Below are positions 3,346 through 45,699 of a DNA stretch of 64,000 nt, piece after piece; the stretch's first letter is position 1; the number at the start of each line of letters is the position of its first letter. This stretch comes from Burkholderiales bacterium (GTDB lineage: Bacteria; Pseudomonadota; Gammaproteobacteria; Burkholderiales; JAEUOS01), in assembly GCA_016790635.1 (NCBI GenBank), contig JAEUOR010000002.1:1-64000 (forward strand), given 5' to 3'. The notes beneath the pieces were generated by a model that saw only the letters and a program-made list of their open reading frames with translations, did no database searches and had not been told where the DNA came from. The translations under genes were made by a program, and so were the position numbers.

Positions 3346-4638
3346 CTACTTCATGAACGATGGTAGCAACAGAACGACGGACGGAACAAGCACCAGCAGC
3401 GAGATGCGCAGCAGGTCGGCCACCACGAACGGCGCCACCCCGCGGAACACGTTGCCCGTGCCGACGTCCCGAAACAGGCCGGAGATGACGAACACGTTCA
3501 GCCCCACTGGTGGCGTGATCAGGCTGATCTCGGTCGCCACCACCACGATGATGCCGAACCACACCGGATCAAAGCCCAAGGCACTCACGATGGGAAAGAA
3601 CACCGGCACAGTGAGCAGGATCATCGTGATCGACTCGAGCACACAGCCCAGAACGAAATAGATGGCGATGATGGCGAAGATCACCGCCACCGGCGGGACG
3701 TCCAGTCCCTTGACGAACGCCGACAGCGCGGCCGGAAGCCCCGCGACGTTGACGAAATTGGAGAACACGATCCCGCCGATCAGCACCGCGAACATCACAG
3801 CGGTGGTGGCTACTGTTTCCAGCAGCACGCGGCCGATGGCAGGCCAGTCGAGCGTGCGCCGGGCCAGCGCCACCGCCAGCGCTCCAAAGGCGCCGATGCC
3901 CGCCGCCTCGGTGGGGGTGAACACGCCGAAATAGATGCCGCCGATCACCCCGAGAAACAGCGCCGCCACCGCCCAGACCCGGCGCAGCGCCGCCCAGCGC
4001 TGGGCGGCGGACATGCGCTCACCCGGCGGGCCCGAGGCCGGATCGCGCCAGACGGTCCATTGCACCGCGGCGATGTAGAAGAGGATGCCGAGAATTCCAG
4101 GAAGGATTCCAGCGGCAAACAGCTTGCCGATGTCGGTGCTGGTCATGATGCCGTAGATCACCATCACCACCGAGGGCGGGATGAGGATGCCAAGCGTGCC
4201 GCCCGCGGCGACGCTGCCCACCGCGAGCCGGTCGGAGTAGCCGAACTGGCGCATTGCCGGGACCGATACCTTGCCCATGGTGGCGGCAGTGGCCACCGAC
4301 GAGCCCGACACGGCGGCAAAGCCGCCGCAGGCCACGACGGTCGCCATGGCCAGCCCGCCGCGCCGGTGGCCGAGAAAGGCGTTGGCCGCGCCATAGAGTT
4401 CCCGGGACAATCCCGCGTGGTTGACGAAATTGCCCATCAGGATGAACATCGGCAGCACCGACAGGCCGTAGTTCTGCGCCGTCTCGAACGCGATCTGTCC
4501 CACCATGTAGGCCGCGCCCTGCCACCCGTTGAGCATGCCGAAGCCGGCAAAGCCGATGGCAAGCATCGAGAAGGCGATCGGGATTCCCATCAGGGAAATT
4601 CCGATCAGCAAGGCAAACGCGAGCAGTCCGGTGAGCAT
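3346..4638 (-). CDS. dctM: TRAP transporter large permease (DctM family)
   Basis: The 430-residue large membrane subunit of the TRAP transporter catalyses Na+-driven solute import. It is hydrophobic throughout with about a dozen predicted helices. Family signatures are visible: GNFVNHAGLSRELY near residue 68 and ASSVATAATMG-type glycine/serine turns (SGSSVATAATMGKVS) near residue 112. A second inverted-repeat half carries ITPPVGLNVFV near residue 376. Length is normal for DctM. It starts 9 bases after dctQ and precedes dctP, so all three are one operon. It sits in the inner membrane with the small subunit and takes substrate from the receptor encoded downstream. Confidence 0.92.
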   Translation of the reverse strand: MLTGLLAFALLIGISLMGIPIAFSMLAIGFAGFGMLNGWQGAAYMVGQIAFETAQNYGLSVLPMFILMGNFVNHAGLSRELYGAANAFLGHRRGGLAMATVVACGGFAAVSGSSVATAATMGKVSVPAMRQFGYSDRLAVGSVAAGGTLGILIPPSVVMVIYGIMTSTDIGKLFAAGILPGILGILFYIAAVQWTVWRDPASGPPGERMSAAQRWAALRRVWAVAALFLGVIGGIYFGVFTPTEAAGIGAFGALAVALARRTLDWPAIGRVLLETVATTAVMFAVLIGGIVFSNFVNVAGLPAALSAFVKGLDVPPVAVIFAIIAIYFVLGCVLESITMILLTVPVFFPIVSALGFDPVWFGIIVVVATEISLITPPVGLNVFVISGLFRDVGTGNVFRGVAPFVVADLLRISLLVLVPSVVLLLPSFMK

Positions 4639-4647
4639 TCCCGGCGC

Positions 4648-5148
4648 CTAGTCCCGGTAGCGCAGCGCGCGCCAGGCAACCGACAGGAAGACGATCACCG
4701 CGAGTGCCGCCATCGCCGCCATGAACCAGGCAAACGGCGCATTGGGAAGATCCAGGTGCGAGGAGCGGTCGCCGAGCCGTGCGAGTTCGTTGCCGCGCAG
4801 CAATAGCCGCCAGGCGACAAAGCCGATCACCAGCGCTGCGACCAGGCTGCCGAACACCCGCTGCCAGCGCAGCAGGGTCCGCGGCAGCATGTGATCGAGC
4901 AGATCGATGCGGATATGCTCCCCGGTCGCCGCGGCGATCGGAATGCCGGCGAACACCAAGCAGGCGAGCAGGAACTCGGTGGCTTCCGCCGAACCCTTGA
5001 GCGGGCGATCAAGGAAGTAGCGCCCAACCACGTCCACGACCGTGACTGCCATCATCAGCACCACCAGCGCGCCCGCCGCCCAGGCAAGCCAGCGTAACGG
5101 CCGGGCCATGGCGGGCGCTGAAGGAGTACGGTCAGAGTCGCTGGACAT
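4648..5148 (-). CDS. dctQ: TRAP transporter small permease (DctQ family)
   Basis: A 166-residue small TRAP subunit with four predicted membrane helices (about residues 18-40, 56-73, 94-114, 136-156). The motif VDVVGRYFLDRPLKG after helix 1 and the EHIRIDLL segment after helix 2 are hallmarks of DctQ. It is the first gene of the transporter operon and divergent from the glutaredoxin-like gene, across 125 bases that must hold both promoters. The N-terminal 15 residues are polar and variable, so the exact start is not certain. A later Met (residue 14) would also give a complete DctQ. Confidence 0.88.
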   Translation of the reverse strand: MSSDSDRTPSAPAMARPLRWLAWAAGALVVLMMAVTVVDVVGRYFLDRPLKGSAEATEFLLACLVFAGIPIAAATGEHIRIDLLDHMLPRTLLRWQRVFGSLVAALVIGFVAWRLLLRGNELARLGDRSSHLDLPNAPFAWFMAAMAALAVIVFLSVAWRALRYRD

Positions 5149-5273
5149 CGAATCGGCAAGGTCAATCGGAATGGTAACCGCCGCTATGGCGCTGCGGCCG
5201 GGAGCAAGCTCTTGCAGCCAAACCTGCCAGCGGGAGTTTAGACTGGTGACCCCGAATCAAGGCGCGTTTGCAC

Positions 5274-5654
5274 ATGTCCCGCTCTATCCTCCCGGAATCG
5301 CGCATCCACCCGGCGGTGCGCGACTTCGTCGCCGGCTACAACGCCGCGATCGTTCGTGAAGTCGAGGCCGCAATCGCCGCCGACGACATCGTGGTTGTCG
5401 GCATGCGACAGAACCCGTTTCCGCGCAAGGCCAGGAAGCTCCTGGAGGCGCGCGGCCATGTGTTCCGCTATCTCGAATACGGCAGTTATCTGTCGGACTG
5501 GCGCAAGCGCGGTGCGCTCAAGGCCTGGAGCGGCTGGCCGACCCTGCCGATGATCTTCATCAAGGGCGTTTTGATCGGCGGGGCAGAGGACTTGGGGCGG
5601 CTGGATGCGAGCGGCGAGTTGAAACGCCTGCTGGAAGCACCGCGCGCGGCTTGA
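5274..5654 (+). CDS. Glutaredoxin-like protein lacking all cysteines
   Basis: A 126-residue protein with the thioredoxin-fold layout of monothiol glutaredoxins: the loop after VVVGM, the WPTLPMIF cis-proline strand, and the closing FIKGVLIGGAEDLGRL segment that normally binds glutathione. The position of the CPYC or CGFS active site reads NPFP (about residues 47-50). The whole chain contains no cysteine, so it cannot perform thiol chemistry. I recall similar cysteine-free glutaredoxin-like proteins from other Burkholderiales, so this is probably a conserved variant rather than decay. ATG 5274 is preferred to an in-frame TTG six bases upstream. It is divergent from the TRAP operon and 28 bases before a histidine kinase. 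Function unknown; a glutathione-binding or scaffold role is possible. Confidence 0.75.
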   Translation: MSRSILPESRIHPAVRDFVAGYNAAIVREVEAAIAADDIVVVGMRQNPFPRKARKLLEARGHVFRYLEYGSYLSDWRKRGALKAWSGWPTLPMIFIKGVLIGGAEDLGRLDASGELKRLLEAPRAA

Positions 5655-44135: not shown

Positions 44136-45209
44136 TCAGAAGCGCTTGGTCAGCATGAGCGTGTTGCCGTCGCGCTTCATCTCGACGCGGTTGAGGAAGC
44201 TCATGCCCAAAAGGCCGATGCCGATGCCGGGTCCTTCCAGAACACTGCCGTCGACGTTGAAAAGCGTGATCGGTCCCAGTGCCACCGAGTCGAACTTGAC
44301 GCGCCAGGCGCGCACCGTGCCGTTGGCCGTCGAAGCCAGTACTGGCGTGCCGTTGCGGTAGTTGATGCCGACGCGCTGCGCGGTCGCGGCATCGATGGCG
44401 ATCAGGGTTGCGCCGGTATCGACCAGGAAGGGCAGCGCGACGCCGTTGATCTTGGCTTCCGCGGTGAACATTCCGCCGCGCGTCTCCTTGAGCTGGATAC
44501 TGGGCCGCGTATCGCGGCGCTCGCTGGGGCCGGAGCGCATGGCCAGGCGCAGGTTGCCGCCCTCGCGCGCCATCGACAGCTGCGACAGGAAGCTCATGCC
44601 GAGCAGCACGACATCCTTCGACCCGGCGCCTTCGCCGACGGCCGCGTCGATGTCGGTCAGGGTGATGGCGCCGACGCGCACGCTCCTGAGCGTCACCTGA
44701 TGGGCAGTGCGTGGCCCGCCGGCCGTGTTGGCCGTGAACGTCGGCCCGTTGCGCCACGCCAGTCCGATCCGGTCGGCCACCTCCGCTGGCAGGTAGACCA
44801 TGCTGGCCCCGCTATCGACCAGAAAACGCACCGCGCGATCATTGATCGCGCCGACGGCCAGGAAGTGCCCGGTGGAGTCGGCGGGAAGAACCACTTCGGC
44901 GCCGTTCGGTGCGGCCTGCCCTGCCGCCGCGGGAGGCGCGCCGCCGCGCCTGACGCCGGCCAGCGACTCCCCGACCCGCAGCGCACGCCGCTGGCCATCG
45001 ATTTCCAGGGTGGCTTCCGCGGCGCCGATGGCGACAACAGTCACGCCTTCTGCAGTACGCTGACCGACCGCCAGTGTGCGCGGCGCGCCCCCGTCGATGG
45101 AAACGACCGCCTTGCCCGGGAACAGCCCGACCAGGCTGACCTGCGTCGCCCAGGTCAGGGCGGGCAGCAGGGCAAGCCAGAGCGCGACCGCCGTGCGCAG
45201 CGTGCGCAT
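44136..45209 (-). CDS. Secreted protein with two tandem retropepsin-like aspartic protease domains
   Basis: A 357-residue exported protein (leader 1-21, ALTWA end). Residues 25-85 form a small beta-domain (LVGLFPGKAVVSID, then TVVAIGAAEATLEI). Two retropepsin-like domains follow. The first has FLVDSGASMVYLP with Asp132, ending LLGMSFLSQLSM (about 202-213). The second has FLVDTGATLIAID with Asp264, ending LLGMSFLNRVEM (about 333-344). Bacterial clan AA enzymes of the TIGR02281 type usually have one such domain and dimerise. Here two Asp-containing halves are in one chain, as in pepsins. It is preceded by yajQ, 4 bases upstream on the same strand, and followed by the ACP gene. Confidence 0.85.
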   Translation of the reverse strand: MRTLRTAVALWLALLPALTWATQVSLVGLFPGKAVVSIDGGAPRTLAVGQRTAEGVTVVAIGAAEATLEIDGQRRALRVGESLAGVRRGGAPPAAAGQAAPNGAEVVLPADSTGHFLAVGAINDRAVRFLVDSGASMVYLPAEVADRIGLAWRNGPTFTANTAGGPRTAHQVTLRSVRVGAITLTDIDAAVGEGAGSKDVVLLGMSFLSQLSMAREGGNLRLAMRSGPSERRDTRPSIQLKETRGGMFTAEAKINGVALPFLVDTGATLIAIDAATAQRVGINYRNGTPVLASTANGTVRAWRVKFDSVALGPITLFNVDGSVLEGPGIGIGLLGMSFLNRVEMKRDGNTLMLTKRF

Positions 45210-45213
45210 GACC

Positions 45214-45699
45214 CTAGTCGCGAAAATTCTGGAAAGCGAGCGGGAACTCCGTCACCTCGCGGCGCACCAGCGCGATGGCCGCCTGCAGGTCGTCGCGTTT
45301 GGGCCCGGCCACGCGCACGGATTCGCCCTGGATACTGGGCGTGACCTTGATCCTGGCGTCCTTGATCAGGCGCACGACGCGCCGCGCCAGTTCGGAATCG
45401 ATGCCGTTGCGTACCTTGATCGATTGCTTCATCTTGTCGCCGCCGATCTTCTCCGGCGTGCCCGCATCGAGAAAGCGCACGTCAACCGAGCGTTTGGCCA
45501 TCTTGGCGAAGAGGACGTCGCGCACCTGGCCCAACTTGAACTCGTCATCGGCAAAAGCAATCAGTTCGCGTTCCTTCTGCTCGACGCGCGCGTCAGAACC
45601 CTTGAAATCGAAGCGATTGGCAACCTCCTTGTTGGCCTGGTCGATCGCGTTCCTGACTTCGACCATATTGGCTTCGAGAACGATGTCGAATGAGGGCAT
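45214..45699 (-). CDS. yajQ: YajQ-family nucleotide-binding protein
   Basis: A 161-residue protein of the YajQ family (two ferredoxin-like RRM domains); some members bind cyclic di-GMP or tRNA/rRNA. Signatures: [19 protein letters not shown], the FDFKGSDA segment, [19 protein letters not shown] and [16 protein letters not shown] 45699 gives the usual 161 residues; upstream frame is only overlap with the divergent region. On the minus strand TACAAT (45734-45729) gives a possible -10 box and 23-base leader. Divergent from murB. Which ligand it binds here is unknown. Confidence 0.94.

Follow-up and report, generated by a model that had tools for sequence, protein, structure and literature searches.

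How did a bacterial gene come to encode two retropepsin-like domains in a single chain, and do the two halves of its product work together as one enzyme? This question is raised by a 64,000-nucleotide stretch of a Burkholderiales genome (JAEUOR010000002.1, positions 1 to 64,000; the window below means this whole stretch). Positions 44136-45209 of the minus strand form an open reading frame with an ATG start that encodes 357 amino acids plus the stop. The gene, its parts and its upstream neighbor are as follows.

44136..45209, minus strand: double-domain TIGR02281 aspartic protease gene (open reading frame with Pfam PF13975 and TIGR02281 matches)
45144..45209, minus strand: probable Sec signal sequence, residues 1-22 (read by eye; predicted helix at residues 3-13)
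44970..45143, minus strand: small beta domain, residues 23-80, with a poorly predicted linker behind it (six predicted strands between residues 24 and 78)
44538..44900, minus strand: protease half 1, residues 104-224 (profile matches, AF2 model and fold comparison)
44805..44816, minus strand: catalytic motif 1, DSGA, residues 132-135, with D132 (sequence; DTGA in three relatives)
44502..44537, minus strand: linker of about 12 residues, 225-236 (gap between the strands at 219-224 and 237-242)
44139..44501, minus strand: protease half 2, residues 237-357 (profile matches, AF2 models and fold comparison)
44409..44420, minus strand: catalytic motif 2, DTGA, residues 264-267, with D264 (sequence)
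45214..45699, minus strand: yajQ, directly upstream (NF003819, 204.6 bits against a cut-off of 146)

The two retropepsin-like domains are real, far beyond chance matches. TIGR02281 (clan_AA_DTGA), which we take to correspond to COG3577 or COG5550, matches two stretches of the protein with 198.7 bits (NCBIfam cut-off, 57.95), as does PF13975 with 169.7 bits (cut-off, 28.2). Compared with each other, the halves share 46 of 109 residues (42%; E 9e-22), and within each of the four two-domain proteins described below (the doubles), the identity between the halves lies at 37 to 43%. The first-pass annotation, made from the DNA letters, had pointed to two catalytic Asp motifs with matching LLGMSFL endings; both are in place, the endings at residues 202-208 and 333-339, and each of the two profiles matches twice. 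In the predicted models, both halves have the fold of the retropepsins (MEROPS family A2) together with Asp-Thr/Ser-Gly-Ala, and the protein departs from the one domain per chain of that family by having two. The profile of the pepsin family (MEROPS A1; PF00026) reached 11.4 bits, below its cut-off of 19.9 bits (E 0.21), and no RloA/RimB family was among the six Pfam families with E values of up to 1, a range in which HMMER drops most weak matches.

The same annotation had placed a small beta domain and an export signal in front of the protease halves, and both descriptions hold, the first through the six predicted strands and the second as a likelihood. The N terminus resembles a signal sequence, judging from its residues and the predicted helix, and export is likely; the protein is thus probably exported and presumably periplasmic. 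Residues 88 to 101, behind the front domain, have a pLDDT under 50 in the AF2 model of the full protein. The front domain is weakly similar, below the cut-off, to PF16537 (T2SSB, type II secretion protein B), a likeness also seen in one tested single-domain relative.

The two-domain form is restricted to one family among the genomes sampled. The window protein is matched in 27 of 41 genomes, the window's own among them. Of the five genomes examined from the same family as the window, four have a full double, and one (84% complete, 520 contigs) gave no match to the gene. A profile of the four doubles matched 155 of 300 genomes of the order at 1e-10. With at most six candidates scored per genome and the matches sorted by E, only the four doubles among the matches listed covered nearly the whole profile (from position 1-5 to 360; E 2.6e-189 to 1.6e-184), all of them in the window's family, and the next match listed (E 2.3e-64) covered positions 14 to 229 of 360. 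The three relative doubles are L032 (JAQGMJ010000017.1), L033 (JAEUOS010000227.1) and L034 (CANJDH010000017.1), in records titled as Betaproteobacteria or Burkholderiales metagenome-assembled genomes. In the orthologues read from beyond the family, a front domain of this kind is joined to a single protease domain, and the length is typically about 220 residues. Loss of one half in all relatives, which the first-pass annotation had named as counting against a double protein, therefore does not apply: the relatives outside the family are single-domain proteins, and the other doubles keep both halves.

In a wider collection of contigs, the window protein alone as query found no matches; a four-row alignment found 466 relatives among 517 stretches, and the best 80 were used as loci. 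Matches of about 1 kb occurred in three of these best 80 and correspond to the doubles of genomes G002 to G004. A domain count in 141 loci returned 142 open reading frames with the domain and 11 two-domain rows, all of them copies of the four doubles. A 1.5-kb match at locus L054 was set aside as a double, being two separate adjacent genes. Phage records gave no match. Among plasmid records, 24 had a match, and the single place covering at least 80% of the query consists of two pieces within 576 bases, too short for two domains. A contig end in one relative's genome (G002:C191; L209:4047-4139) encodes a 31-residue fragment that is 68% identical to the C terminus, perhaps a second copy or a strain variant. 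Two contigs titled Rhodospirillales (L061) and Nitrospira (L081) carry copies close to proteobacterial ones, so that their labels or bins may be doubtful; the yajQ of the former is 68% identical to the window's yajQ, and the latter groups among Muproteobacteria in the tree.

The surroundings of the gene bear on how the second domain arose. Four bases separate the yajQ stop codon from the protease ATG on the same strand; beyond yajQ lies a divergent murB, and on the other side of the protease gene lie a ketosynthase gene and one for an acyl-carrier-protein-like product that stays below the NCBIfam cut-offs. Directly upstream of all four doubles is yajQ. Among the 80 loci, yajQ is matched in 31 and murB in five, namely, the doubles L032 and L033 and the single-domain loci L039, L040 and L054. 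At the single-domain loci L039, L054, L068 and L077, fewer than 40 bases lie between the end of yajQ and the downstream start that our script selected, and at the remaining loci, yajQ is further away or outside the stretch examined. That single-domain genes and doubles occupy the same yajQ locus in these cases argues for a change in place. An alternative route is pictured at L054 (positions 3890-5518), where two complete single-domain genes, 3 bases apart as open reading frames, stand head to tail behind yajQ in what reads as a whole-gene tandem duplication at the same locus. A tandem-gene stage is thus possible. As an alternative to internal duplication, the doubles could stem from the yajQ-type gene having fused with another gene, which would be such a tandem whole-gene copy or a membrane-anchored TIGR02281 paralogue.

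A paralogue of this second kind, TIGR02281-like, with a membrane-anchor-like N terminus and without the front domain, was read in the genomes of 12 relatives (L197 to L208); the window's genome has no further match beyond the gene studied here.

Phylogenetic trees place the first halves of the four doubles in one clade and the second halves in another, both with support of 100/97. These separate clades place the doubling before the four genomes diverged. In the free trees, the two clades do not come together, and when the 12 membrane-anchored paralogues are added, the first halves group with them (96/91), which speaks against in-place duplication and for the fusion just described. However, a joint clade of both halves is not rejected (AU test, p 0.26; p 0.35 with the paralogues), and in all four doubles the first half scores higher on a profile of 70 yajQ-type single-domain proteins (115 to 135 bits) than on a profile of the 12 paralogues (91 to 110 bits). 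Moreover, the first halves are 45 to 60% identical between genomes and the second halves 61 to 65%. The first halves thus changed faster, making attraction in the tree possible and the grouping with the paralogues perhaps an artifact, although the tree program raised no long-branch flag for them. Taking the locus, profiles and trees together, we favor in-place duplication without regarding it as proven, and consider gene fusion rather unlikely.

Of 28 columns conserved in 72 single-domain rows, the first halves of the doubles keep 103 of 112 cells and the second halves 107 of 112. Both Asp-Ser/Thr-Gly-Ala motifs are retained in all four doubles, and the motif Asp, Gly and Ala as well as the LLG motif are found in either half of each. 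Half 1 reads DSGA in the window copy only, and this Ser for Thr could be taken as a sign that protease function was lost and that the protein now has a peptide-binding or structural role. DSG is a normal pepsin-type motif, and the retention of the motif residues and LLG in both halves of every double makes such a loss quite improbable.

Do the halves differ from each other in a consistent way? Five residues (L259, P260, D273, G330 and G332) are fixed in the second halves and occur in under 10% of the 70 single-domain proteins, while 70 control quartets, which overlap, had at most three such residues (mean, 0.46). P260 lies four residues before D264, at a position where 53 of the 70 single-domain proteins have Arg or Lys; G330 is also present in one first half. 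No residue is fixed in the first halves and rare in the 70 single-domain proteins, and no column of the four doubles has one invariant letter in the first halves and a different one in the second, which speaks against specialization. The five fixed residues of the second halves are a hint of specialization, and a thin one.

Structure predictions were obtained in two AF2 jobs, the first on the full protein with 51 rows (pLDDT 89.0, pTM 0.51) and the second on the two halves with the four doubles (pLDDT 84.5, pTM 0.47). MAFFT placed the single-domain sequences either all on half 1, when full-length proteins were present, or all on half 2, when there were fragments only, and never on both; the alignment of the first job accordingly holds 47 single-domain rows that cover half 1 only. 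Each half is predicted to fold as a retropepsin. In the first job, the model of half 1 matches the Rickettsia conorii protease APRc (5c9f) with a Z score of 17.4 (3.1 Å over 128 residues), and human immunodeficiency virus (HIV) protease gives Z scores of 12.7 for half 1 and 12.4 for half 2 over 99 residues. In the second job, half 2 reaches a Z score of 15.9 to APRc, half 1 being hardly tested there.

How the halves are arranged is a separate matter. Foldseek alignments that span both halves, with tethered HIV protease, plasmepsins and other pepsins, have root mean square deviations of 12.6 to 16.2 Å, meaning that the halves are not docked in the models as they are in tethered HIV protease or in pepsins. 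They are undocked in both AF2 models, and at a pTM of about 0.5, their relative placement neither shows nor refutes pairing. The linker between them holds the sole stretch with a pLDDT under 50 in the two-halves model. A dimer with two active sites could form if each half paired with its counterpart in a second chain and not with the other half of its own. The undocked halves, the poorly predicted linker, the retention of both motifs in all four doubles and the lack of columns fixed differently in the two halves all speak for such cross-chain pairing. However, the uneven evolution of the halves and the residues fixed in the second halves are more easily explained by a division of labor, and the undocked result is no test of cross-chain pairing, since AF2 was run on one chain only. 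We therefore rate cross-chain pairing as unlikely and retain pairing of the two halves within one chain as the preferred reading.

The two-domain layout is not unique to the window's family. PF13650 matches were present in 129 of 200 genomes of the phylum, and both matches in the window's genome lie in this one gene. Twenty of the listed PF13650 places, chosen mainly for long open reading frames, were examined: four had two profile hits, a fifth had a second DSGA, and the other 15 had one hit. Pfam, run on five of the places only, found two stretches (Asp_protease_2) in each of L173, L176, L180, L181 and L182. A profile of L176, L180 and L181 matched 10 of the 200 phylum genomes, three of them its own sources, and had no match in the window's genome at 1e-10. 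In trees, these five proteins fall on long branches outside the group that holds the window protein. The search for other bacterial double proteins that the first-pass annotation had proposed thus found some, and its view of the present doubling as independent is supported, the window protein being set apart from the other bacterial doubles in the trees. A PDZ domain is also present in L182, and L173 and L176 have DTAA as their first motif. The Bacteroides fragilis structure 9iy9, which Foldseek aligned over 299 to 307 columns across both halves, may be another double. Among the papers listed for bacterial double retropepsins in an open-licence library, no title or abstract describes the doubling reported here.

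The answer that we propose is an in-place duplication: the gene at the yajQ locus would have doubled its single protease domain in the ancestor of one family of uncultured Burkholderiales. Its two halves would most likely pair with each other inside the chain, one catalytic Asp coming from each, and the presumed homodimer of the single-domain relatives would thereby have become a single-chain pseudo-dimer whose lobes are free to diverge. We put the probability of this reading, an exported retropepsin-like protease that arose by a family-specific in-place duplication and forms a single-chain pseudo-dimer, at roughly 0.6; the parts of it that we infer are the pairing of the halves, the proteolytic activity, the location in the periplasm and an origin by duplication instead of gene fusion. 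In terms of mechanism, an exported aspartic protease working as a single-chain pseudo-dimer is most likely. A more far-reaching interpretation, for which we would give a little less than even odds, is that the family repeats in nature what has been proposed for the origin of pepsin. In-place duplication would have turned a retropepsin-type homodimer into a two-lobed aspartic protease of one chain; sister families still carry the single-domain form at this locus, and a division of roles between the lobes would have begun.

Several known systems can be set beside this protein. Prokaryotic single-domain peptidases of clan AA, COG3577 and COG5550, are described in PMC2642776, and among the matches listed, the TIGR02281/PF13975 relatives from this order carry a single protease domain in each gene, the four doubles excepted. 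The best solved relative, both by sequence (E 1.2e-9) and by fold, is APRc/ApRick of R. conorii (5c9b, 5c9d and 5c9f), which has one domain, whereas the window protein has two. Passages of PMC4140852 report that APRc accumulates as a dimer, with dimers seen by cross-linking, and passages of PMC11313796 report that the usual homodimer is not formed in its structure; given the latter, the pairing mode is presumptive even for the single-domain form. The Pseudomonas enzymes RloA and RimB are also bacterial and retropepsin-like, RloA having a signal peptide (PMC12239564; PMC11957791), but RloA is described as forming dimers of one-domain chains (PMC12239564), in contrast to the two-domain chain found here. 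The exported Pseudomonas enzymes are reported to affect osmotic tolerance, biofilm and cell shape (PMC12239564). Any likeness of role would be a loose analogy, as they appear to belong to another family.

Tethered HIV-1 protease dimers (4q5m and 1hvc) likewise hold two retropepsin domains in a single chain, and Foldseek aligns them across both halves; they are man-made, and their docking is not reproduced by our models (about 15 Å root mean square deviation). The bacterial pepsins of family A1 (PMC2761423) are bilobed with one Asp per lobe, an arrangement that our protein may share. According to the same source, sequence likeness between pepsin lobes is confined to the surroundings of the active-site motifs, bacterial pepsins are predicted to be intracellular, and the proposed origin of pepsin is a dimeric, one-lobed ancestor that was duplicated and fused, the question of which form came first being debated. 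The interest of the present family lies in the comparison with this origin, although other bacterial doubles exist: with one-domain and two-domain forms at the same locus in related bacteria, and with halves that are still 37 to 43% identical, the step proposed for pepsin becomes testable by ordinary enzymology, which could also help to settle how APRc-type enzymes form their active site.
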